From positions 1-54,884 of IMG/VR virus record IMGVR_UViG_3300020159_001695: 54,884 bases of DNA, one strand, 5' to 3'. Origin of the DNA: a virus. The position numbers and the translations under genes are program-made. Numbering within the stretch: the first letter of the stretch is position 1; every line of letters starts with the position of its first letter. Below, one piece after another: positions 3,311 through 54,875 of this stretch. Under the pieces are notes generated by a model. It was not told the origin of the DNA and did no database searches. It was given only the letters and a program-made list of their open reading frames with translations.

Positions 3311-3678
3311 TGAAATTATTTGAAACATTTCAAGAAATACTATTAGAACGTGCTGATAGAAATAAACTAATGGCGGCTATTAGTAATAAAAACGTATGTA
3401 GAATCTACTATGAAGGGGATACTACTGTCGTTAAAGGATTAAGAGTCATTGAACCTGTATGTTTGGGGGAATCCAAAAGAAATAATTTGGTTGTTAGAGC
3501 TTGGCAAAGAGTGGGTGTATCCGATACACCTGATAATATACCAGGTTGGAGGATGTTTAGATTAGATAGGATTAAAACATTCGTTCCGTTAGAAGAAACA
3601 TTTAACGAACCAAAACCAAATTTCAACCCAAATGGAGACAAGGACATGATTAAAATCTACGAAATAGCTTCATTTTAA
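3310..3678 (+). CDS. WYL-domain protein
   Basis: 122 residues, nearly all one WYL-like domain (about 20-100): NVCRIYYEGDTTVVKGLRVIEPVCLG, then NNLVVRAWQRVG and GWRMFRLDRIKTF, matching the family pattern of an IxYxG strand, a xIEPxxLG strand, LxRAxQxxG and FRLDRI. WYL domains are Sm-like beta-barrels that sense ligands or nucleic acid, often inside transcription regulators. No DNA-binding domain is present, so this is a stand-alone WYL. The N-terminus MKLFETFQEILLERA resembles T4 capsid-targeting peptides (MKTYQEFIxE). It closes the TAATG-coupled operon. Family call good, role unknown. Confidence 0.75.
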   Translation: MKLFETFQEILLERADRNKLMAAISNKNVCRIYYEGDTTVVKGLRVIEPVCLGESKRNNLVVRAWQRVGVSDTPDNIPGWRMFRLDRIKTFVPLEETFNEPKPNFNPNGDKDMIKIYEIASF

Positions 3679-5469: not shown

Positions 5470-6873
5470 ATGAGTATAGAAAGTAGAAGTATAAGTACCG
5501 GTAAAAATAATCAAAACATAGTATTTGGTACTGTTATAGACAATAAAGACCCTGAAAATGCTGGTAGGATTAGGGTTCTTTTAGATAACAATAAATATAA
5601 GGTAGAAAATTTTGTAGCTTGGCAAAAAGGTAGTACAGTCAATAATACTGTAACTGATCCTTATATTTGTAATCCATTTCTACCTAAACTTATTAACGTA
5701 GTTCCAAAAGTAGGTGAATTAGTTAAAGTTATATTTTATAACCCAGATTATCCTGAATTGGATAAAGAATATGTTGGACCCGTTATTTCTCAGTTCAACA
5801 GCATTGAATATGAAAATGCGACACAAGGTAGAGTATTCACACAATCACAAAAAACAAATCTATTACCCAATTTAGGAAACTTTGAATATTCTAAAGGGTT
5901 ATTACCCGATATCAATAATATTACAATTTTAGGTAGAAAAAGTACTGATTTAACTGTTAAACCAAATGATGTTTTAATTCGTTCAGGTAAAGTTGATTTA
6001 AAGGATAATAAGAAATTTAATAAAAAGGGTTCGTTATTCCAAATATCATCTAACCCTGTTAAATTAGATAGAAAAACCACACCTGTCACAGTAAATAAAA
6101 GAATACCCGAACCAATCAATAATGTTGTTATATATAACTTAAATTCAGATAATTCAGGTTATGTAAATGTTTATAAACTAACAACCCCTAAAAATACGAG
6201 TAATATAAATATAAACACGAATTTAACTAATCTAATATCCACACCAGCAATTACCTATACGTTTTCAGCTAACACACAAACAATAGGTATTAGTTATATT
6301 AATCAATTCCTTAGTTTTTTAGATAACAATCAAATTAAAAACCAAGATACGGATAGTGGTATAATCACAATAAATCAACCGGTGGTTGGTGTTCCTTATT
6401 TATTAAAACCGGAAAGTTTATTACCTATATATAGCACAGTTAAAGTATTCAATGTAACCCAACAAGGATTTAGAACAATTAAACCGATTGAAAATCAATT
6501 AGTGGATACCTTACAAGAAAATATAAATACTTCAGTTGATTATCAAAATTATATGGTGGCTTTAAGTGATATGTTATATTTTTTATCAAATGAAACATCA
6601 ATACCTGAAAAAGGATTTATTAATTTTGATGGTATAAATAATGGTTTTACTGTTGATAAAGTAACCAGAGAAATAAATGATAAAACAGATCCAATGGTTA
6701 GGGGCGATCAATTAGTTAAGGCTTTAGTTATTATAATAAATGCCTTCTTAAATCACGTTCATAGTGGTTTTGGTTTTATGAGTGTAAATCAAACTGATGA
6801 AATACAAAAATTAACTAAGTTAAGATCCGAACTTAATGGTTTAATATTAAACCATAAAATAAGAATAAATTAA
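5470..6873 (+). CDS. Baseplate hub/spike protein with gp5-like OB-fold
   Basis: 467 residues. Residues about 17-110 form the OB domain typical of gp5/VgrG hub proteins: NIVFGTVIDNKDPENAGRIRV, then NPFLPKLINVVPKVGELVKV and YPELDKEYVGPVI. In T4 this domain sits at the central baseplate axis and trimerises above the membrane-piercing needle. No lysozyme domain and no glycine-rich beta-helix needle are seen. Residues 200-350 look like a beta-rich insertion, and the C-terminal 100 residues are helical and include an HVHSGFGFM segment. A late-type octamer lies 3 nt before the start. OB identification is good; exact subunit equivalence is inferred. Confidence 0.75.
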   Translation: MSIESRSISTGKNNQNIVFGTVIDNKDPENAGRIRVLLDNNKYKVENFVAWQKGSTVNNTVTDPYICNPFLPKLINVVPKVGELVKVIFYNPDYPELDKEYVGPVISQFNSIEYENATQGRVFTQSQKTNLLPNLGNFEYSKGLLPDINNITILGRKSTDLTVKPNDVLIRSGKVDLKDNKKFNKKGSLFQISSNPVKLDRKTTPVTVNKRIPEPINNVVIYNLNSDNSGYVNVYKLTTPKNTSNININTNLTNLISTPAITYTFSANTQTIGISYINQFLSFLDNNQIKNQDTDSGIITINQPVVGVPYLLKPESLLPIYSTVKVFNVTQQGFRTIKPIENQLVDTLQENINTSVDYQNYMVALSDMLYFLSNETSIPEKGFINFDGINNGFTVDKVTREINDKTDPMVRGDQLVKALVIIINAFLNHVHSGFGFMSVNQTDEIQKLTKLRSELNGLILNHKIRIN

Positions 6874-12113: not shown

Positions 12114-13955
12114 TTATCTTAATTCTGCAATGTTAAATGTTCTAACACCATCTACTGTGATAACACCATAGAACCTATTGTTCAACACCTTAGTTGCGTA
12201 TCTAGTCATGATACCTTTAATAGGTGCGAAAGTGAATGGATTATACATAGTTGGAGTTAATTGTAATGGAACGTATGGAGCATATACATAACCAGTATCT
12301 AACATAGATGAACCTTTGTGTCCGATTAACACTTTGTTAGCTGGGAAGTATGGATCTCTATACACTTTGTATCTTCCTTGAAGAGTTCCAATTTTTTCAA
12401 TACCCATATTGTATTGATCTTCTTCAGGGTTAGCGTTTGAAACGTGGAAGTATTGTAAATCATCAAAGATTGCTGAAACTTCAGCTGAACAAACGATCCA
12501 GTTAGCACCACCTCTTAAAGTTGATTTGAAGATTTGAGCTGAAATTTGATTGATTGCTGTAATCAATGTTTGGTTCCAGTCTTTTTGAGTATATGGAGCT
12601 TGACCTGCTGAGAATCTCTTCCAACCGTTCCAATCCCATCTTAATCTCCAAGCCGCTGCTTTTCTTAAATCTCTCAAGATTTCTCTATCAATTTCCGCTG
12701 CGATTTCTTCAGATAAAATAGCTGTTAATTCAGCTTCTGCGTCAATGTTATGGAATGCACTAACGTCTTGAGCCATTTCAGGAGACCATTGTGCTCTTAA
12801 TTTTCTTTCTGTTACAGAGATTGTTACTGAATCTAATTCGAAAGAAACTTCACCTAAAGCTGCTTCAAATTCTAATTCTCTATATTGTCTCCATTTAGCT
12901 GAGAAGTTTGAGAATGTTTCACCCGCACTACCTGGTAAGTATGTACCAACGTAACCATCTACTGAATCACAAGAAATACAAGCTGGACAACTTAAATCTA
13001 CCTCAACATACATTTTACCACTAGCATTACAAACATCTTGAGCTGATGAAAGTACTGATTGACCACCTAAATTACCTGTTACTTGAGCCCAATAATCAAC
13101 GATTTGTCTTGAATATTTTTGAGTTACAACTCTAAATTCTAAAGGTGAATTAGCTGCGTATGATATAGTTGAACCTTTACCTGAGCCAAGACCACCTGTT
13201 GAACCTGTACAACAGAATAAATTAGTGTCATTTAACATTTGGAATGACGCTAAGAATTCTTCAGTATCCATTTCATTACCATTAGGTCCAATGATTTTAC
13301 CAGCCCCACCTGAAGTGAAACCTGTTACTTCTAAAGTTGCATATCTTGTACAACCTGAAGCATTAACAGCTGTAACTGTATTAAACTGTGAAGTGCCTGC
13401 TGATAAAGTAACTAAACTAACGATTTTCAATGCACCTGTTGTGAATTCTTGGTAAGCACCTTTAGATCTGTCAAACAATTGGTTGTTATCTAAACCTGAA
13501 GTTGAATCATAGTAAGAATCATACAAGTTAGTTGATTGGAAAGGTGTGTTTGTAGTATCAGCATTTGGATAACCAAATGGATTTGAATGTTGCCATACAC
13601 CACCAACATTTGTTCTCTGAGAAATTTTAGGAACGAAGAAGAAAATTCTACCAATCGGCATGTTCAAAGCTTGAACTGAAACGATTTCGTTAGCTAATAA
13701 TTTTGAGAATACCCTTCTAATGATAGGGAATACTACTGTTTCGAAAGAACCTGCTGAATCTGTTGCAGTTGCTTCGTTAATTAAAAACGATGCTTGATTT
13801 TCGAATAATTGAGCCACATTGTCTTTAGTGTGACCATCTAAACCTTCAAGAAAGCCCATTCTATCCCATTTTTGGATAGTTTGCTCTCTTACAAGTTTCA
13901 TTTGTTTTAATCCGATGTTTCCTACTTCACCAGATTTTAATAAAAAACTACTCAT
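12114..13955 (-). CDS. 23: Major capsid protein (gp23-like) precursor
   Basis: 613 residues, longer than T4 gp23 (521). Family hallmarks: MGFLEGLDGHTKDNVAQLFENQ at the N-terminus, GSFETVVFPIIRRVF, IVSVQALNMPIGRIFFF, and the P-domain core SVTERKLRAQWSPEMAQDVSAFHNIDAEAELTAILS. A prohead-protease site of the T4 type (hydrophobic-x-Glu) lies at INE61-A62, which would remove a 61-residue propeptide as gp21 does in T4. Residues about 180-345 hold an insertion with a CPACISC cluster (Cys323, 326, 329) and further cysteines at 202, 248, 249 and 309, possibly metal-binding or disulfide-forming. There is no own late-type motif; it is probably read from the scaffold promoter. Confidence 0.96.
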   Translation of the reverse strand: MSSFLLKSGEVGNIGLKQMKLVREQTIQKWDRMGFLEGLDGHTKDNVAQLFENQASFLINEATATDSAGSFETVVFPIIRRVFSKLLANEIVSVQALNMPIGRIFFFVPKISQRTNVGGVWQHSNPFGYPNADTTNTPFQSTNLYDSYYDSTSGLDNNQLFDRSKGAYQEFTTGALKIVSLVTLSAGTSQFNTVTAVNASGCTRYATLEVTGFTSGGAGKIIGPNGNEMDTEEFLASFQMLNDTNLFCCTGSTGGLGSGKGSTISYAANSPLEFRVVTQKYSRQIVDYWAQVTGNLGGQSVLSSAQDVCNASGKMYVEVDLSCPACISCDSVDGYVGTYLPGSAGETFSNFSAKWRQYRELEFEAALGEVSFELDSVTISVTERKLRAQWSPEMAQDVSAFHNIDAEAELTAILSEEIAAEIDREILRDLRKAAAWRLRWDWNGWKRFSAGQAPYTQKDWNQTLITAINQISAQIFKSTLRGGANWIVCSAEVSAIFDDLQYFHVSNANPEEDQYNMGIEKIGTLQGRYKVYRDPYFPANKVLIGHKGSSMLDTGYVYAPYVPLQLTPTMYNPFTFAPIKGIMTRYATKVLNNRFYGVITVDGVRTFNIAELR

Positions 13956-38085: not shown

Positions 38086-41019
38086 TTATACATTCTCAAA
38101 TGAAGCCCCTTGAGGTGTGATAACAAACTGAATGTTAATATACTCCAAAGCCGATGTTGGTTTTAGAAAAATTGTTCCATTCAATTCATTATTATCAATA
38201 TCTTCAGGTGCGTTACTCAATTTAACTCTGAAATCTGTTAAACCTCTTTCTCTTCTGATACCATCTAAGATTGGATTTACCAAATTCAAGAAGTCGTTTC
38301 TTACTTGTTGATCGTTTGGTTGGAATAATAATCTTAAACCAACTGCTGCGATAAGCTTTCTTGTTTGTAGTAATAATCTTCTGATATTTAATCTATCAAG
38401 AACAGAATCTCTGATTTGTAAGTTTCTATTACCCCAAATAACCGGACCAACACCTCTAAATGTAGCGATTGGATTGATTCTACCTGGATATAATGTATCT
38501 CTATCTGTTTGAGATAATTTTCTTCTTGGTTTTGATATAACTAAACCTCTTTCAGTTCCTGCAATTGCATACCATTCGTAAGAGATGTTATCAGTTAAAG
38601 CTAAGTTTCTTACAACTTCAGCTGTTGGTGGCATCCATACCTTAGAATTATTTTCTGTGTCATTATAAAGAACGAATGGATAATAAGTTGCTGTATAGTT
38701 AGAATCGATACCTACTTCATCTAATATTGAAACAACCGTATTTGAATCATACCAATTGTTAGTATCTGAAGAATCAGGGGCAAACATATTAATATCAGGT
38801 AAAGTTGGAATATAGATACTATCAGCTCTGTCATTTTCAACCATATCAATTGTATATTCAACCAATGATGAGTTGTTTTCAATATCAATACCTGGAGTTA
38901 CCAATACATTGATATCCGCATCTTCAGGATTTGAATACTTTTCAATAGCCGTTCTATAAGCGTAGTAGTCAGAATTACCAAGAGCACTAAATCCTTCGTT
39001 AGTATAAGTGGTTTGTCCAATTCTATAACTATCACCGTTAGTTCTATAAGCTCTATAAATATCCCATCCATCATAACCACCATAAGGCGCTACCGTGAAT
39101 TTTCTACTTAATAAACTTGAATAAGGTGTTCCTGTTGTTCCCGCTTCTGTTTGGAATGGAGCTACACCAACATCAAATGTTGCCGCTACGCCATTTACAC
39201 TTACACTTGTTGCTCCCGAATCCATATGGAAACCATTAGTTGTTGTAGTTGAAGCCACATTACCTTTATATTGGAAGAAATCACTATCATAACTCCAGAA
39301 ATTACTATCAGAAATACCTAAGAAAGATTTTCTAATGTTATCTCCACTTGAAATTACTGGTGAAATACCTGCTGGTGGATTTGTAATTGTTTCACCCGCT
39401 GTAAAGTATTTAGTTTTATATTGAATTTTAGGGTTAGCTGTTCCTGAACCATAAGTTCTAATAGTATAACCCATAAAACCTGCTGGAACCGCTGTAGATG
39501 GAGCATCGGTAGCGATTTCAATCATAATGTATTTAGATTTTAAATCATATTTACCATCAATAGTTCCAACTTTTTTACCGATATAAGTCAATTGACTTTC
39601 ATCCATTGAACATCTAACGTATTTTTCTAAAATAACAGGATTGGCATCCGTATCGTTAAAATCTCTTACGATTAAATCAAATTCTCTTCTCTCTAAATTG
39701 ATATTTTGAATTGATATTTTAACTAAAGTATTTGCCGCTTCACCATCAGAAATTGTTATAACCCTAAATAATTTGAATACGTCAGTTCCTCTTAATTCTG
39801 ATACGAAATAAGGTGTTGCTGGTGTAGCCCATTGTTCTTTATAGTCAGTCATATTTACACCTGATGAAGATGAGTTAGTAGTTAAAGTACTTTTTAAACC
39901 TCTAATATAACCTTTTAAATAACCATAGTTTAATAACTCAGTATATATCTCTTCAACAAATAAAGCACTTTGCTTTTCTTTTGGTTGCTTACCTAATACA
40001 AGTGGTATATATTCTTTCTTAGTGTTATCCATACTAACAGAGTAATTGAATGATGCTCCAGCCGTAGTTGTTCCGCTTAATTTGAAACCACCTTTAGAAT
40101 TTAATGTGATATCATCTATCGGTATTAAAATAGGATTTCCACTAACAACCGGTGTTAATGTATTGTTAGACCAATTAGCATCACTTCTTAATGTTGCCAC
40201 TACTAAATTATCCCAACCACTATAACCTGCAACTGATGCGTCATAAGTAATGAAATTAGTTGTACCCGTGTAAGTACCACCCGGATTTAAAGTTAAACCT
40301 GTAACATAAACACCATAGGTAATACCTGAAAATGTATTTACTCCTGTTGATACGAATAAATTATTAAGCCAAGTACTATCACTTGTATTACTATTTAAAA
40401 CATCTGTCATTGATGACGTTGTAATACCTGTAATTGTTGAAATTGTTGTAGCACTTAAATCACCATATCTATATGATATAGTTGATGCCGATAACGCCCC
40501 AATTCTTGAACCGTATGAACTAACAACTGAACTAAAGAATTGATTAGTTGTTGCTGACACCACCCTTTGATAAGGTGATAAGAATGATGGGTATGTAAAT
40601 GTTAATGTTCCACCAGTTGTTAATTGGAATGGTGTATAAACATTTGTTGGACCCGCTAATGATATTGTTGAAATATCAGGTTGTGCAATTGTGCTGATTG
40701 ACCAAGCCGAACCCGCATCATAACCACTTAAACCTAATATTCTTGTCATATACATTTGACTTGCTTGAGATAAGTATTCTCTCGCTATGTAATTACCTTC
40801 ATATTTTAAAATTTGTGTCCCTGAAAATTTTTCAGGATTTGCACCACCGAAATAAGTAGTGAATTCATCGTAGTTTTTTACTAAAATCGGTTCAAACGCT
40901 GGTCCTCTTTGAGCCTCACCTACTATACCTAATGAACTAACACCTAAGCTTTGTGCCGCAAAGGTTAAGTCAACTTCACTCGTATATACACCAGGTGATA
41001 CGTTTATTTGTTCTGCCAT
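38086..41019 (-). CDS. 18: Tail sheath protein (gp18-like)
   Basis: 977 residues, much larger than T4 gp18 (659). The N-terminus INVSPGVYTSEVDLTFAAQSLGVSSLGIVGEAQRGPAF is the sheath signature. The C-terminal contraction domain is also clear: LYPGRINPIATFRGVGPVIWGNRNLQ, LNIRRLLLQTRKLIAAVGLRLLFQPND and LVNPILDGIRRERGLTDF. The extra length lies between about residues 110 and 640, where several beta-rich insertions (Ser/Thr/Gly-rich) would form outer-surface domains on the contracted tail. It closes the tail operon and is followed by a strong terminator. A late-type octamer lies 36 nt upstream. Confidence 0.95.
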   Translation of the reverse strand: MAEQINVSPGVYTSEVDLTFAAQSLGVSSLGIVGEAQRGPAFEPILVKNYDEFTTYFGGANPEKFSGTQILKYEGNYIAREYLSQASQMYMTRILGLSGYDAGSAWSISTIAQPDISTISLAGPTNVYTPFQLTTGGTLTFTYPSFLSPYQRVVSATTNQFFSSVVSSYGSRIGALSASTISYRYGDLSATTISTITGITTSSMTDVLNSNTSDSTWLNNLFVSTGVNTFSGITYGVYVTGLTLNPGGTYTGTTNFITYDASVAGYSGWDNLVVATLRSDANWSNNTLTPVVSGNPILIPIDDITLNSKGGFKLSGTTTAGASFNYSVSMDNTKKEYIPLVLGKQPKEKQSALFVEEIYTELLNYGYLKGYIRGLKSTLTTNSSSSGVNMTDYKEQWATPATPYFVSELRGTDVFKLFRVITISDGEAANTLVKISIQNINLERREFDLIVRDFNDTDANPVILEKYVRCSMDESQLTYIGKKVGTIDGKYDLKSKYIMIEIATDAPSTAVPAGFMGYTIRTYGSGTANPKIQYKTKYFTAGETITNPPAGISPVISSGDNIRKSFLGISDSNFWSYDSDFFQYKGNVASTTTTNGFHMDSGATSVSVNGVAATFDVGVAPFQTEAGTTGTPYSSLLSRKFTVAPYGGYDGWDIYRAYRTNGDSYRIGQTTYTNEGFSALGNSDYYAYRTAIEKYSNPEDADINVLVTPGIDIENNSSLVEYTIDMVENDRADSIYIPTLPDINMFAPDSSDTNNWYDSNTVVSILDEVGIDSNYTATYYPFVLYNDTENNSKVWMPPTAEVVRNLALTDNISYEWYAIAGTERGLVISKPRRKLSQTDRDTLYPGRINPIATFRGVGPVIWGNRNLQIRDSVLDRLNIRRLLLQTRKLIAAVGLRLLFQPNDQQVRNDFLNLVNPILDGIRRERGLTDFRVKLSNAPEDIDNNELNGTIFLKPTSALEYINIQFVITPQGASFENV

Positions 41020-46224: not shown

Positions 46225-46650
46225 TTACTTTATTTTTATGTACTTATACCAAACTCTTTCGTGTAGGAAATAAATAACGGGCTTTAATACTAATTCACCC
46301 ACACCTAACATTGAAGCCAATGCTATTGGAGCTCCTAAACAATACGCAGTTATTACAGTTGTTAAAGTCCCCAAAAACCTGTATGATATTGTTTTTAATA
46401 AATGTCTTTTAAATGCCGAATCTTTTGGTGGTGTTGTAATGTAAGCAATATTATCTTTAATAACACAATTACCTTTACAAGTAATATGCCACTTATAACC
46501 TAAACCATCCATATGATCTTTTGTTGTGAATACCTCACCATCAACAAAAATATCTGAAACCAATATTTCTTCACCATCATCAGGTATTAATCGCCATCTT
46601 ACCTCTTCTGTTGTTGAATTTGTATTAAATCTAATTTTATAAGTTTTCAT
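46225..46650 (-). CDS. DUF2061 membrane protein with N-terminal soluble domain
   Basis: 141 residues. The N-terminal 75 residues are a small beta domain with CKGNC. Residues 78-141 match DUF2061: FKRHLLKTISYRFLGTLTTVITAYCLGAPIALASMLGVGELVLKPVIYFLHERVWYK, with two membrane segments and the conserved HERVW end. DUF2061 is often found next to or fused with sulfate-activation genes (cysC, cysN), which agrees with this operon: its start overlaps the stop of the nucleotidyltransferase (TAATG). Possible role in sulfate or sulfonate handling at the membrane; not established. Confidence 0.82.
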   Translation of the reverse strand: MKTYKIRFNTNSTTEEVRWRLIPDDGEEILVSDIFVDGEVFTTKDHMDGLGYKWHITCKGNCVIKDNIAYITTPPKDSAFKRHLLKTISYRFLGTLTTVITAYCLGAPIALASMLGVGELVLKPVIYFLHERVWYKYIKIK

Positions 46651-47054
46651 TATAATTTACCTTCTGTTCTTAATTGCTCTCTTATTTTTGTTGCCGAAAT
46701 ATTGGCGATATCTAATGGTGGTAAATGTTCAATAATATCATATCCAACACCTCTACCAAACTCTACTGAACAAATATCAGGAATTACCATAATTTTAACT
46801 TTACCCTCAACACATTCCGTATAATAATGTTCCATAATCATAGCTTCCACTTGTTTAGCTGTAAATGGATTTTTTTCATCTGGTTGAATATCTCTAATAC
46901 AAATTAAGATATTTTTACCTTCATTCATTGCTTGTTGAAACATCTCTTGATGTCCTTTATGTAATGGTTGCCATCTACCAATAAACATTGCGTATTGTCC
47001 TTCTTTACGTTCTAATGATGACTGAACGTGTAATTTTTTATACCAATCCGACAT
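46650..47054 (-). CDS. HxGH nucleotidyltransferase (NMNAT/adenylyltransferase-like)
   Basis: 134 residues. MFIGRWQPLHKGHQEMFQQA carries the HxGH ATP-binding motif, and ISATKIREQL near the C-terminus is the ISxTxxR motif of this superfamily. NPFTAKQVEAMI is typical of NadM-like enzymes. It transfers a nucleotide from NTP to a phosphorylated (or sulfate) substrate. Overlap of 17 nt with APS kinase suggests one pathway; an unusual ATP-sulfurylase role (sulfate + ATP to APS) would complete PAPS synthesis but the sequence is closer to NMN or sugar-phosphate nucleotidyltransferases. Exact substrate uncertain. Confidence 0.78.
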   Translation of the reverse strand: MSDWYKKLHVQSSLERKEGQYAMFIGRWQPLHKGHQEMFQQAMNEGKNILICIRDIQPDEKNPFTAKQVEAMIMEHYYTECVEGKVKIMVIPDICSVEFGRGVGYDIIEHLPPLDIANISATKIREQLRTEGKL

Positions 47055-47493
47055 ATTCTATAATCTCCTTTATACATTCTTCTGGTGTTATATTTGTTGT
47101 ATTCATATCCAAATAATTTGATACAGGTTTTTGAAAATCCTCAACGTGGAATTGTTCCCTACCCCTTATTTCTGTTGTATGAACATAAACCTCAAAAACA
47201 TCTTTTGTGTTATTTTTAAATTCTTCTCTTATATCTAAATAAGGTGTCATAAGCGACACTACAACGTGAAATCCTTTATTTTGTAGATATTTAGCAATTA
47301 CTTGAGCATTACGAATATTTTGTTCTCTACCTGTTCTTGAATAATCTTTATTTATTGTAAGATTTCTTAAATCATCGCCATCAATGTGAAATACATCATT
47401 ATGGGCTGTTTGATCGATATGCTGTTCTAATAATTTAGCGAGAACTGTTTTACCATGACCCGCTTGTCCGATTAACCATATAATTTTAGTCAT
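47038..47493 (-). CDS. cysC: Adenylylsulfate (APS) kinase
   Basis: 151 residues. P-loop GQAGHGKTVLAKLL, then HIDGDDLRNLTINKDYSRTGREQNIRNAQVIAKYLQNKGFHVVVSLMTPY (family: LDGDNxR...GFSxxDRxENIRRxxEVAxLxxxAGxxVxxSxISP), FEVYVHTTEIRGREQFHVEDFQKP, and DMNTTNITPEECIKEII. It phosphorylates adenylylsulfate to PAPS, the sulfonate donor for sulfotransferases. It is slightly shorter than bacterial CysC (about 200) but has all main motifs. The lid sequence differs (FHVEDFQ in place of RDPKGLY), so a nucleotide-related kinase is the alternative. First gene of a three-gene overlapping operon. Confidence 0.85.
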   Translation of the reverse strand: MTKIIWLIGQAGHGKTVLAKLLEQHIDQTAHNDVFHIDGDDLRNLTINKDYSRTGREQNIRNAQVIAKYLQNKGFHVVVSLMTPYLDIREEFKNNTKDVFEVYVHTTEIRGREQFHVEDFQKPVSNYLDMNTTNITPEECIKEIIEYVGLV

Positions 47494-47877: not shown

Positions 47878-50307
47878 TTATAAATTATATCTTGTTCTTA
47901 AAGCGTTATAATTTTGTATTACTTCCGCTTGATTTAAATCCCTATTATATAGTGAAAAATTACTTAGATTGGCGGTGCATGCACCAGGAATGTTCGCGCC
48001 CGTATTCATTGAGTTGAATAATAAATTAAAATTTGTTGCGGCTGATTGATCGGATGTTAGTGTTAATATTCCATCGGTATAAAATCTTAAAACTCTCGAT
48101 GAATTAACTGTCATACATATGTTATGCCATTTAGAATGAAAACTATTTTGAGATTCAAATGATATCCTTTGACCTACATCAACACCACCTTGAGTACCAA
48201 AAGGGTTAAAAATAACAACCCCATTACTTGATGATGTCGATATATACATATCACTTCTATAAATAGCTAAATTAGCACCCGCACCGGATGTAAATGTATT
48301 ATCAATCGATCCGTCAGTATTTAACCTTATTAAATTATTATACGTCACTCCACTATATGTTGTAGGAACATTTGTACTGGTTGTATTGAAATTGGCATCT
48401 GTTAATACTATTATTTTACCATCTGATTGTAAATCTATTGAGTTAATATACGTATTAAACCCACTACCTGTTACAAATGTATTATCTATTGTCCCACCAC
48501 TATTTAACCTGATTATCCTATTTGCAGTTACACCACTATATGATGTAAAAAAGCCACCTAATAATATTTTATTATCGGGTTGAATTCTTACACAATTTAC
48601 GTGATTATCAAAACCCGCTCCTGTGGTGAAAGTATTATCAATTGTCCCATTTGTATTTAATTTAACTATTCTATTCGCAGTAATACCACTATACGTTATA
48701 AACCTACCTGCCACCAATATCTTACCATCGGCAGTTACCTTAATACCATTACCGCATGGGTATTGATTTGACGTACTACCCGCATTTGCAAAACCAGCCC
48801 CCACAACAAATGATGTGTCAGCCAAACCTGTTGTACCATTTATTTTTACTATTCTTGGATATGACGCATTATTAAATGTTGTAAAATTACCGCCGACATA
48901 ATAATCGTTATTACTATCTGCAACAATACTACTAACAGATGTTGAATTAAAACCGGTTAAAGTGTTAAATGACGTATCAGGTGTTAAATTAGATAAGTTT
49001 ATTTTCGCTATTTTATTTACCGTTACTCCACTATATACCGTCGCCCAACCACCAACAACAACCATTTTTTGATTGACTAAATCCAATACTAATGTTCCTT
49101 CGTCATTAATTTGCGGTCCTCCACCACCTGAAGTTGCTGGAAATGTTGATACGGTATTACCACTTAAATCTATTTTCTTTAAACCATAATTACCAATATT
49201 TGTTCCAACAATATATGCGTTATTTTGATTGTCAAATATAATTTCACGTATATTTGTAACACCACCTAACGCATAATTGGCATTAAATGTCGTATCAATT
49301 GTTCCACCTGATAAAATTTTAGTTATAAAAGCTCTTTCTAAACCTTGATAACCTCTATATTCACCCATAATATAAATATTATTGGAGTTATCTACTTTAA
49401 CCCTCGATATGGTGTAATATAAAGATAAATCAATGCGATTAGCATAGGCTGTTGTATTACCTCTTGTTAAATTAAGAGTTTGTGAAGTTATTGCGCTCGT
49501 TATATTCCATTTATACCAATAATTTGCCGTCCAAGTTGATGCACTTATTTGTGTTGCCGATATTGTATCATCTAAACCATCAAATGATAGAGATCCGTAA
49601 TTTCCCCTACTATACCCAATACCATTATTTAATGATACGGTTGAGTTATTACCGCTTAAATCATTCATTGTAGTATTAATAGTAGTACTAAAAGGTATAT
49701 ATCCCGGATCGGTTGTTAATACCGCCAAATCATTATTTACAGTTCCACCTGATGTTGGAATTGATCTTGCAATTACCAATCCTGATATGTAATAAGTATC
49801 TCCAGTGTTATTAGCGGAAACACCTGACCCATATGAAAAACTAAAGTCAAACCAATTACTCGCATTATAATTACCGCCAGTATCCCAAGTTAATAATTGA
49901 GTCCAAGTCGTTGCTGTCCCTATTATTGCGGTAGCAAAACCCGGACCACCATTATCTGAAATATCAATTTGAATATTCGCTGTTGGATTATTTGTTGTTT
50001 CACCTCTAACATACATTGAATACCTATAAAATCCATTACCTAATGTTCCTATCGCTTCAGATGATGTTAATCTATGTAAAGAATTTACGAAACCTGTTCC
50101 ACATACCAACCTATAAACAGGAGCACCTGCAATTGGGGGTGTGATTGTCCCACCTGTCACTAATGTCATTGTTGATCTAATTACATTCCAACTTGTTAAA
50201 ACTGGTGATATATTTCTTATTGGAATACTAAACGATTTTGGATTAAAAGTGTCTATATTTAACAATAATCCATCAGTTACAACCCTATTTCTATTAATTA
50301 CTGCCAT
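47878..50307 (-). CDS. LamG-fold virion protein with inserted seven-repeat delta-60 propeller
   Basis: 809 residues. Residues 1-200 include a carbohydrate-binding-like beta domain (VIRSTMTLVTGG...TWTQLLTWDTGG). LamG begins near 205 (LSGNNSTVSLNNGIGYSRGNYGSLSFDGLDDTI) and resumes near 705 (GQRISFESQNSFHSKWHNICMTV...LRFYTDGILTL), ending NRDLNQAEVIQNYNALRTRYNL like its paralogs. Between them (about 300-700) lie seven delta-60-like repeats (GTIDNTFVTGSGFN..I..QSDGKIIV, VGGNFTTFNN, VAGRFITYSG), forming a probable seven-bladed beta-propeller inserted into the LamG jelly roll. Likely a receptor or glycan-binding virion protein. Confidence 0.8.
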   Translation of the reverse strand: MAVINRNRVVTDGLLLNIDTFNPKSFSIPIRNISPVLTSWNVIRSTMTLVTGGTITPPIAGAPVYRLVCGTGFVNSLHRLTSSEAIGTLGNGFYRYSMYVRGETTNNPTANIQIDISDNGGPGFATAIIGTATTWTQLLTWDTGGNYNASNWFDFSFSYGSGVSANNTGDTYYISGLVIARSIPTSGGTVNNDLAVLTTDPGYIPFSTTINTTMNDLSGNNSTVSLNNGIGYSRGNYGSLSFDGLDDTISATQISASTWTANYWYKWNITSAITSQTLNLTRGNTTAYANRIDLSLYYTISRVKVDNSNNIYIMGEYRGYQGLERAFITKILSGGTIDTTFNANYALGGVTNIREIIFDNQNNAYIVGTNIGNYGLKKIDLSGNTVSTFPATSGGGGPQINDEGTLVLDLVNQKMVVVGGWATVYSGVTVNKIAKINLSNLTPDTSFNTLTGFNSTSVSSIVADSNNDYYVGGNFTTFNNASYPRIVKINGTTGLADTSFVVGAGFANAGSTSNQYPCGNGIKVTADGKILVAGRFITYSGITANRIVKLNTNGTIDNTFTTGAGFDNHVNCVRIQPDNKILLGGFFTSYSGVTANRIIRLNSGGTIDNTFVTGSGFNTYINSIDLQSDGKIIVLTDANFNTTSTNVPTTYSGVTYNNLIRLNTDGSIDNTFTSGAGANLAIYRSDMYISTSSSNGVVIFNPFGTQGGVDVGQRISFESQNSFHSKWHNICMTVNSSRVLRFYTDGILTLTSDQSAATNFNLLFNSMNTGANIPGACTANLSNFSLYNRDLNQAEVIQNYNALRTRYNL

Positions 50308-51728: not shown

Positions 51729-54700
51729 TTAATATGTTTGTGCTATTATAGTTGATGCCCAAAGGTAAGTATCTGTATTACCTGTTACTACCAATCTAAT
51801 GTTGTTGCTTGAAATGTCAATACCTACATTCGTATTATTGTTATCTCGATTTACAAAACCTTGATCTACCCCTACCTGAGTTAAACTACCTGTTAAACTT
51901 CTCTTAGCGGTATATTTGTATTCACTTATTGTTGAATCCATATTGGCGTTATTAGCCCTACCTAAAGTATTTGCCGTTAAGAATACTGTTTGTCCTGTCG
52001 GTATTGCTAATTGATATAATACCGAAACTGATGAACCAGTTGTTAATCCACTTACTTGAGACATTCTATAACCTAATCCAATACCTTCATTAAATATTAA
52101 ATCAGATTGAACTGTTACGGTTGAAGCACTATTTCTAATAACACCAAATGTTAGAGTTTTACCTGTCTTACTTAAAACTGTATTAGGGAAATCATATATA
52201 TTAACATCCCAATTTGAGGTTGCGTCAATTATTGGTAATCCTGATACGTCATTAACCCCATAAATTGTTCCTGATATTACATCACTTACAGTTAATTGTG
52301 TTCCGATATTTGTTGCTCCGAAATCCGCAATTATATTTGTGGCCCCTGTCCAAGTTAAAGTTGTTCCTGTGAAAAGGGTTTGGACTGATAACGCTTTATT
52401 TGTTTGGTTATGTTGAGCGTATATTATTGTTGGATTAATATATGTAGCATATAATGTATCACAAGCAGTCCCTCTTTGAGTTAATGTCTGATTTAAATTC
52501 CAACCACAAGTGTTATTAGCTGTTGCTGTAAATGTTCCATTAAATAAGTGTTGTCCTGTATTTAAAGCCGTATATAATGATAAAGGTGTTGAGTTTCTAA
52601 CAAGTAATGCACATCCTGAAGATGCTGATGTTCCTTGTAATAATGTTTGTCCGCAAGCATTTATACATTGAGTGAATGTTGTGTTAATAGCATTTGCCGT
52701 AATATTTGAACCTAAAATAAATGAGTTATTACAAGTTGTTGTATTATTTCTACCGCCTAATATATATCCAAATGCTCCTGTTACGGTATTACCTGAACCA
52801 CCTAAAATACCTGAATATGTTCCTGATGCCGTATTTCTACTACCACCAACAACTGCCGAGTATGCTCCTGTAAATCCTGATAAACCAGCAACTATACCAC
52901 TATTAATACCTTGAGCTGAGTTATAACAACCACCACCTATAAAAGAACAGGCTCCGACACCACAATTCTCCCTACCACCAATAACCGCAGAAAACTGACC
53001 TGATGTTCTATTTAAACAACCACCACCTATAATTGAACCATAACCTGATGCGGTATTACTCTTACCACCAATAACGGCTGCGTATGAAGAAGAACTTGTA
53101 TTATTATTACCTAATGCGATTGATACTGTTTGAGAAGCAACTGCTAATCTACCACCAGCAATACTACAAATTCCGGATGCTGTATTTGATAAACCACCAA
53201 TTACGGTTGAGAAGTTACCTGAAGCCGTATTAAGACAACCACCACCTATTGTTGAGTTAATACCTGATATTGTATTATTACTACCACCACCAATTACAGA
53301 TGAACCACTAAATGTGACATTCCTAAATCCACCACCAATAGATGAATAATTACCTGAATTTGTTGTATTACAAGATCCACCACCAATGAAACCAAAACAA
53401 TTTGAGTTTGTATTACAAAATCCACCACCAATAGAACCATATGAACCAAGAGCCGCAACTACCGTGTTTGATACACCGCCACCAACAAATGACGCATATG
53501 CGGAAGCGGAATTTAAACATCCACCTGCCACGGCAGAGAAACAAGACAACGTTCTATTTCTTGTTCCACCACCAATAAACCCTAAAGCACCATTTATTGT
53601 ATTAAATGTTCCACCACCAATATTACTACAAGTTGCGGTTACAAGTGTAACATTCCCACATCCACCACCAATAAAAGTATATACTCCGGTTGTTGTATTA
53701 CCTGAACCACTAAATATACCTGAGTATGTTGTGGCGGGAGTAATATTATTAAATGACCCTCCCCCAATAACAGAATAGTCCCCTGATGACGTATTTTTAA
53801 ATCCACCACCAAGAAATGAAGTTGAACCTGTGACAATATTTAACCTACCACCAGCAATAACTGAATATGTCCCTGAAGCGGTATTTCCTGTTCCACTTAA
53901 TACACCTGAATAGTTTCCTGATGTTATATTATTAGCATTTATCCTTACTGTTGATAATATACCTGAACCAAGTTCAATTACTTTATTATTAGTTAATCCT
54001 GTTACAATGCCATCTATATTATTCCATCTTACACCTGATGGTGATGTAAATAATACTTGATTTGTTGTTCCTGATGTGTTTGTACTATCATAGATGTAAG
54101 TTTTTACATTGAATGAATTACCACTTACATCACCTAAACCTGTCACTGCAAATGTATTAGTGCCAGCATTATTCTGAACCTCAATTACTCTATCAGTTTC
54201 AGCCGCACTACCCCTCCTAAATGTCACGGCACCTAATGTTGAATCTGTTAAAATCTCAGGTTGAGATGAGTTATCGTATGCTTGTTGTAATGTAGTTGTT
54301 GATAAACCACCTGTTCCACCTAATAATTCACCAAACTTTGATACTAAAGTAAATCTAGCATAATTAGTATTAGTCAATGGCTCACCATCCGCAACAATGT
54401 CATTCCTTACCGAAATAATACCAATTAAAATACCGGTGGTTTCAGCATTAGGGTATATGACAAAAGATTCTGTTTGTATTCCAGCAACCGCAGCTGTTAA
54501 ATTAGGGTAGTTTGTTTGTCCGTATAGAATATTTATAACACCAGTTGGATATAAATAAACCCTTTGGTTACTAGCATTATCACTACCCGCACCACCCATA
54601 CTGGTTATTACACCACCGACATCATATTTTGTAGGGTCAATCACGCTTACACTTGAAGAAGTTCCACCTGTTTGTGTTCTATAAAAAAAAGACGCTGGTG

Positions 54701-54875
54701 AATTAGCCGCTATTGATACTGAATTTGGATTTAATTGATTTGTTGTCCAACCAATACCATTACCCCATAACACCCCTGCTGATGTGTTAATTTCTAAAGT
54801 TGTTGAGTGTGGTGATACAATAATACCTTGATTTACCAATTTAATTGGTGTCCATAAATCACGCAATGCTGACAT
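51729..54875 (-). CDS. Giant fibre with beta-roll (YadA-like) repeats, fibre C
   Basis: 1048 residues. N-terminal domain (about 1-265) begins MSALRDLWTPIKLVNQGIIVSPHSTT and includes GGTGGLSTTTLQQAYDNSSQPEI, a segment frequent at fibre N-termini. About residues 300-760 are beta-roll units (SxIGGGxxNTASG) like fibres A and B, also Cys-rich (GGGCGNVT, GGGCYNS), closed by a degenerate cap (NNSFILGSNITANAINTTFTQ). The C-terminal 280 residues form beta domains (NTSGQHLFNG..., TGLTTGSSVSVLYQLAIP). It is complete in the window, ending two bases before the LamG gene. Fibre A and B 20-residue repeats are absent. Confidence 0.85.
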   Translation of the reverse strand: MSALRDLWTPIKLVNQGIIVSPHSTTLEINTSAGVLWGNGIGWTTNQLNPNSVSIAANSPASFFYRTQTGGTSSSVSVIDPTKYDVGGVITSMGGAGSDNASNQRVYLYPTGVINILYGQTNYPNLTAAVAGIQTESFVIYPNAETTGILIGIISVRNDIVADGEPLTNTNYARFTLVSKFGELLGGTGGLSTTTLQQAYDNSSQPEILTDSTLGAVTFRRGSAAETDRVIEVQNNAGTNTFAVTGLGDVSGNSFNVKTYIYDSTNTSGTTNQVLFTSPSGVRWNNIDGIVTGLTNNKVIELGSGILSTVRINANNITSGNYSGVLSGTGNTASGTYSVIAGGRLNIVTGSTSFLGGGFKNTSSGDYSVIGGGSFNNITPATTYSGIFSGSGNTTTGVYTFIGGGCGNVTLVTATCSNIGGGTFNTINGALGFIGGGTRNRTLSCFSAVAGGCLNSASAYASFVGGGVSNTVVAALGSYGSIGGGFCNTNSNCFGFIGGGSCNTTNSGNYSSIGGGFRNVTFSGSSVIGGGSNNTISGINSTIGGGCLNTASGNFSTVIGGLSNTASGICSIAGGRLAVASQTVSIALGNNNTSSSSYAAVIGGKSNTASGYGSIIGGGCLNRTSGQFSAVIGGRENCGVGACSFIGGGCYNSAQGINSGIVAGLSGFTGAYSAVVGGSRNTASGTYSGILGGSGNTVTGAFGYILGGRNNTTTCNNSFILGSNITANAINTTFTQCINACGQTLLQGTSASSGCALLVRNSTPLSLYTALNTGQHLFNGTFTATANNTCGWNLNQTLTQRGTACDTLYATYINPTIIYAQHNQTNKALSVQTLFTGTTLTWTGATNIIADFGATNIGTQLTVSDVISGTIYGVNDVSGLPIIDATSNWDVNIYDFPNTVLSKTGKTLTFGVIRNSASTVTVQSDLIFNEGIGLGYRMSQVSGLTTGSSVSVLYQLAIPTGQTVFLTANTLGRANNANMDSTISEYKYTAKRSLTGSLTQVGVDQGFVNRDNNNTNVGIDISSNNIRLVVTGNTDTYLWASTIIAQTY

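Follow-up and report, generated by a model that had tools for sequence, protein, structure and literature searches.

The locus analyzed here raises the question of whether a phage protein can carry a whole beta-propeller inside a small lectin domain, as the initial annotation had proposed for a protein of 809 amino acids (P0001), and what such a protein would do. The window, i.e., the whole stretch of 54,884 bases that was analyzed, is a metagenomic virus record from IMG/VR in which no ends were found. PHROGs matches in the window include a major head protein and a contractile-tail sheath; the source is an uncultured contractile-tailed phage, and the P0001 gene lies within its tail-gene region. 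The right end, on the minus strand, holds a beta-roll fibre-like gene, two LamG genes, P0001, and a small gene (Table 1). The contig end has probably truncated the fibre-like protein P0004 at its N terminus, since 9 bases separate its first Met from that end and its homologue in L101 (from position 5742) has about 360 residues ahead of the corresponding Met. The small protein P0005 had no family match in Pfam or PHROGs, and its look-alikes have 117 aa in L160 and 98 aa in L181. The description of the two neighbours P0002 and P0003 as uninterrupted LamG proteins sharing the C-terminal motif of P0001 was upheld by alignment (the motif, YNRxLxxxEVxQNxNA, is common to all three), and a Pfam Laminin_G_3 match was obtained for P0002 and none for P0003.

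Table 1. Features of the window. Domain boundaries within P0001 are accurate to about 10 residues.
Feature	Coordinates	Strand	Evidence or remark
P0001, 809 aa	47878-50307	-	
P0001, LamG piece 1 (first jelly-roll strand, residues 1-27)	50227-50307	-	Profile match to model 1-27
P0001, first insert (CBM-like beta-sandwich, modelled with low confidence, residues ~28-206)	49690-50226	-	Clean gap in L002/L003
P0001, LamG piece 2 (residues ~207-298)	49414-49689	-	Profile match from residue 212 at model 31
P0001, second insert (seven delta-60 [DUF5122] repeats, residues ~299-690)	48238-49413	-	
P0001, LamG piece 3 (residues ~700-809)	47881-48210	-	Profile match and C-terminal motif
P0002, uninterrupted LamG protein, 221 aa	50309-50974	-	Pfam Laminin_G_3, 2.6e-8
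P0003, uninterrupted LamG protein, 251 aa	50971-51726	-	Alignment with P0001 and P0002
P0004, beta-roll fibre-like protein adjoining the LamG array	51729-54875	-	
P0005, 109-aa gene after P0001	47536-47865	-	Look-alikes follow both full-length homologues
Major head protein	12114-13955		PHROGs match
Contractile-tail sheath protein	38086-41019	-	PHROGs match
Three adjoining small genes	46225-47493	-	

The two halves of the LamG domain had been placed at about residues 205 to 298 and 705 to 809, on either side of the propeller. The split around the propeller stood, but the LamG starts at residue 1, as indicated by both the alignment (residues 7 to 27 fall on the first strand of P0002 and P0003) and a profile that we built from 16 uninterrupted LamG proteins, with P0001 left out. 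Against uncut P0001 this profile scored 45.9 bits, with matches at residues 1 to 27, from residue 212 and at the C terminus, the order of the model being kept. The score was 55.7 bits when the first insert alone was cut in silico and 87.7 bits when the propeller alone was cut; with both inserts cut, a single match of 119.4 bits covered the model (1 to 228) from end to end. Shuffled versions of the joined core reached at most 8.1 bits, while cores in which other pieces of P0001 stood in for the N-terminal or the middle piece reached at most 91.6 and 85.8 bits, respectively. Chance can be excluded as an explanation of the split LamG. At the level of sequence, P0001 is a LamG domain split twice, by two inserts, in the order LamG (1 to 27), CBM-like insert (~28 to 206), LamG (207 to ~295), propeller (~299 to 690), and LamG (~700 to 809). 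The insertion of a propeller into LamG is thus borne out by the joined-core score, by a 602-aa relative and by the models, but it is one of two insertions. The split protein is real and more intricate than the initial annotation described.

It is very unlikely that a degenerate sandwich, a propeller and a separate lectin piece simply follow each other in tandem and that the split is an effect of the alignment. A Pfam search of uncut P0001 reported no LamG, and two bacterial proteins do have LamG and delta-60 repeats in tandem, both of which would fit such an arrangement; however, the three pieces give a full-length match when placed in model order, swapping pieces costs score, and no piece alone amounts to a whole LamG. 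Besides, the 602-aa relative, with the same split but without the first insert, rises from 51 bits uncut to 108 bits against the LamG profile once its propeller is removed. 

Two AlphaFold models of P0001 were obtained from different alignments. The first had poor confidence over the LamG, and therefore a second alignment was used for folding; mixed-fragment alignments misplaced the LamG pieces and were left out. In the second model (pTM 0.61), the ten-residue means of pLDDT are 89 at residues 11 to 20, 71 to 79 at 211 to 270, 72 to 89 at 721 to 750, and 83 to 96 at 781 to 809, with low values at 676 to 722. The LamG pieces are predicted to fold locally with fair to good confidence, and residues 1 to 27, 207 to 298, and 700 to 809 would pack as one jelly-roll domain. 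Certain LamG-type viral models align along most of the P0001 chain.

The seven delta-60-type repeats that had been recognized from the letters alone were confirmed by a match of P0001 to Pfam DUF5122 (E = 1.6e-49, 166 bits against a cut-off of 27) in six significant stretches, by a repeat profile, built from P0001's own repeats, that places seven units (residues 300 to 349, 353 to 401, 406 to 455, 458 to 508, 519 to 569, 570 to 619, and 621 to 680), and by a simple motif with exactly seven repeat cores (residues 330, 378, 435, 488, 549, 600, and 661). The number of repeats per ORF peaks at 7 and 13 to 14 in bacterial delta-60 loci and at 6 to 7 and 14 in viral ones, with a small viral group at 20 to 21, and these peaks are consistent with a seven-bladed unit. 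The blade number, for which an AlphaFold model and a Foldseek search had been advised, is also seven in structural comparison: in both AlphaFold models the propeller (~295 to 674) superposes on seven-bladed proteins with Z values of 25 to 27 in VIA-align, whose rows span the propeller only. The propeller is accordingly predicted to be a closed ring of seven blades. The top superposition of the second model is on CylK (7roo, 7fh6; Z 27, 3.4 A over 325 residues, 20% identity). A search of solved structures by sequence found mainly designed proteins and no natural delta-60 relative.

Alternatively, P0001 might be an enzyme such as a hydrolase of surface polysaccharides, in which the propeller would be catalytic and the lectin parts would bind the substrate, as in sialidases; sialidases and trans-sialidases, like P0001, combine a propeller with a LamG-like lectin in a single chain. 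Trans-sialidases, GH43 and GH74 proteins do appear among the whole-model Foldseek matches, weak Pfam matches to sialidase lectin domains occur in some LamG relatives, and CylK, the closest propeller structure, is a Friedel-Crafts alkylating enzyme with a seven-bladed propeller (PMC8916777). However, the whole-model superpositions are poor (TM 0.1 to 0.3, rmsd 14 to 32 A), P0001 matches no enzyme family in Pfam or PHROGs, and in P0001 it is the lectin that hosts the propeller. CylK itself differs from P0001 in having an N-terminal calcium-binding beta-roll domain and no LamG split, and its active site lies at the interface with this N-terminal domain of another fold (PMC8916777). No Asp box (SxDxGxTW-type motif) is present in P0001, and the sialidase reading of the propeller was set aside on this ground. 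Considering the missing Asp boxes and the poor whole-model superposition on sialidases, an enzymatic role seems improbable.

The first insert is less well defined. It is probably a CBM-like beta-sandwich, modelled with low confidence (pLDDT 31 to 79). Pfam CBM_4_9 had no match in P0001 at E values up to 1 and matched 1 of 45 aligned relatives (6e-4). The insert is conserved in the homologue P0007 (E about 1e-49) and weakly similar to inserts at the same site of other LamG proteins.

Two full-length homologues carry both inserts. P0007 (contig 3300042565_002416) is 41 to 42% identical to P0001, with a beta-roll gene ahead of it and a LamG gene, a 117-aa gene and an amidase-like gene (by eye) after it. 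The second, in L181 (3300017917_000407), is a protein of 804 aa with the same plan; it adjoins a plain LamG and another LamG whose insert lies at a different point, and a tail sheath gene is close by. In the latter LamG (positions 750 to 2096 of L181), the insert is a CBM-like domain. The 602-aa form, in which the propeller is present and the first insert absent, was found in six contigs (five whole, one end-cut), and the alignment of its L002 and L003 members to P0001 shows residues ~25 to 205 cleanly missing.

LamG relatives without a propeller, which the initial annotation had suggested looking for, are abundant: 110 of the ORFs classified are uninterrupted, and about 20 others are interrupted, after an intact first strand, by an insert of ~150 to 350 aa located at the first site or close to it. 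These first-site inserts are CBM-like in several cases, glycine-rich in L134 and LamG-like in L155. The former is the LamG relative at positions 3587 to 5107 of L134, and in the latter (positions 6710 to 8239 of L155) a LamG-like domain is nested inside LamG. The parallel suggestion, a different insert at the propeller site, was not borne out; among the LamG relatives surveyed, no large second-site insert other than a propeller was found, and the other very large gaps in the LamG alignments correspond to tandem LamG proteins. Two loci 41% identical to the LamG start of L003 were discarded as another LamG array, L323 being without a propeller; L323 (330 to 5877) codes for six consecutive LamG proteins, and two or more of these have an insert after the first strand.

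A viral scan with P0001 alone as the query gave no match, although closer sequence pairs did match, and a scan with the N terminus plus the insert had the P0007 contig as its sole match. In the collection of isolate phages, only the repeats were found, in Stenotrophomonas phages CM1 and RAS14. The exact rarity of the architecture is not countable from these scans, since they were limited by the short peptide patterns on which they rested.

Regarding the origin of the split protein, we placed 105 LamG cores in a quick tree. Those that bear a propeller fall on one side of a branch (one change, support 58), with P0001, P0007 and the L181 protein grouping together (support 87), and when the labels were shuffled, 0 of 500 labellings were as low as the one observed. 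A single origin of the propeller-bearing cores is a fair but not a firm reading of this tree, because its branches are long and many of its forks weak. The initial annotation had assumed that the insertion came after a local duplication. However, the tree separates the propeller-bearing cores from P0002 and P0003, which appear among small LamG proteins of other phages (with weak support), so the tree does not support a recent origin of P0001 by copying of the genes now next to it. LamG gene arrays are common in phages of this group, and therefore an old LamG duplication is likely.

Most of the closest cellular propellers belong to Bacteroidota and some to Verrucomicrobia and others, and it is plausible that the propeller was captured from hosts such as Bacteroidota. 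A propeller within a split LamG never appeared among the bacterial delta-60 proteins examined. Third-position GC is even over all P0001 segments (0.18 to 0.20), so nothing points to a recent acquisition. This evenness also speaks against an assembly or fusion artefact of the contig; the virus record is metagenomic and without ends, as mentioned above, but the architecture of P0001 recurs in other divergent lineages, on independent contigs, and we give such an artefact almost no weight.

As for the function, sugars or proteins are common ligands of both LamG and propeller folds. The genes beside the relatives of P0001 code for beta-roll proteins, a Peptidase_S74 fibre and sheath proteins. Propellers have been described in phage host-recognition or baseplate proteins, namely phi11 Gp45 (five blades), PRD1 P2, and phiKZ gp131C, the latter with seven blades like P0001 (PMC4901313). 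Considering these fibre and sheath neighbours, the binding habits of the folds and the known phage propellers, it seems likely that the twice-inserted LamG acts as a composite tail adhesin of the virion, a receptor-binding head. The tail location, receptor binding and mode of attachment are those that we infer from this context.

In such an adhesin, one LamG (concanavalin A-like) jelly roll would be the chassis for two inserted domains, with the CBM-like sandwich placed after the first strand and the complete seven-bladed propeller in a later loop. The entry and exit points of each insert are probably close together, which would let the jelly roll fold even though its chain comes in three pieces. 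The LamG base, common to the small neighbouring lectins, would probably attach as they do, and the sandwich and propeller may present extra surfaces for host surface glycans or proteins.

The PHROG matched by the C terminus of P0001 (phrog_8510) is annotated as a head and packaging virion structural protein and not as a tail protein. Because of this annotation, it is possible, if unlikely, that P0001 decorates the capsid or tail tube and lets the virion adhere, weakly and in a general manner, to surfaces or to polymers resembling mucus, in place of binding to a specific receptor. Several LamG genes in a row would also suggest many copies or variants per particle, but the fibre-like and sheath genes that neighbour the relatives argue against decoration, and the diversity of the inserts suggests a changing specificity. 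The composite tail adhesin described above remains our preferred reading.

Lectin and propeller domains are each already known in phage adhesins. The phage Laminin_G_3/ConA-like lectins (PF13385) share with P0001 the base fold (by profile), the N- and C-terminal motifs and the location in arrays beside fibre genes; they are mostly uninterrupted or have a first-site insert only, the propeller group alone having an insert at the second site. Delta-60/DUF5122 propellers (PF17164), known mostly from Bacteroidota proteins, also have seven repeats, but in the bacterial proteins the LamG, where present, is in tandem and not split around the propeller. Among the phage propellers, phi11 Gp45 differs in its triple-helical stem, platform and tower, and no lectin domain hosting a propeller is described for phi11, PRD1 or phiKZ (PMC4901313). 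We found nothing direct in the literature on delta-60 propellers in phages or on a LamG split by a propeller, and among the papers searched we saw no account of a lectin fold with two interruptions, one of them a whole propeller.

P0001 suggests that phages use the small LamG fold as a base for plugging in host-recognition parts. More tentatively, LamG might be a general chassis on which sandwiches, glycine-rich domains, a second LamG, and propellers are swapped in fixed loops, and such swapping on a constant base could perhaps be a modular way of changing host recognition, unlike changes at the fibre tip. Natural relatives represent each form (LamG uninterrupted, with just the first insert, with just the propeller, and with the two together), so that one can ask how new binding proteins arise through domain insertion and whether the variable head is held on the virion by an unchanging base.

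Two other features of the window are worth recording. The tail sheath protein has 977 aa and is matched by the sheath profiles at residues 656 to 975 only, leaving an N terminus of about 650 residues outside the match. Beyond P0005, the three adjoining small genes code for an APS-kinase-like P-loop protein (2.4e-17), a cytidylyltransferase/ATP-sulfurylase-like protein and a DUF2061 membrane protein, possibly a sulfate-activation set in a phage.
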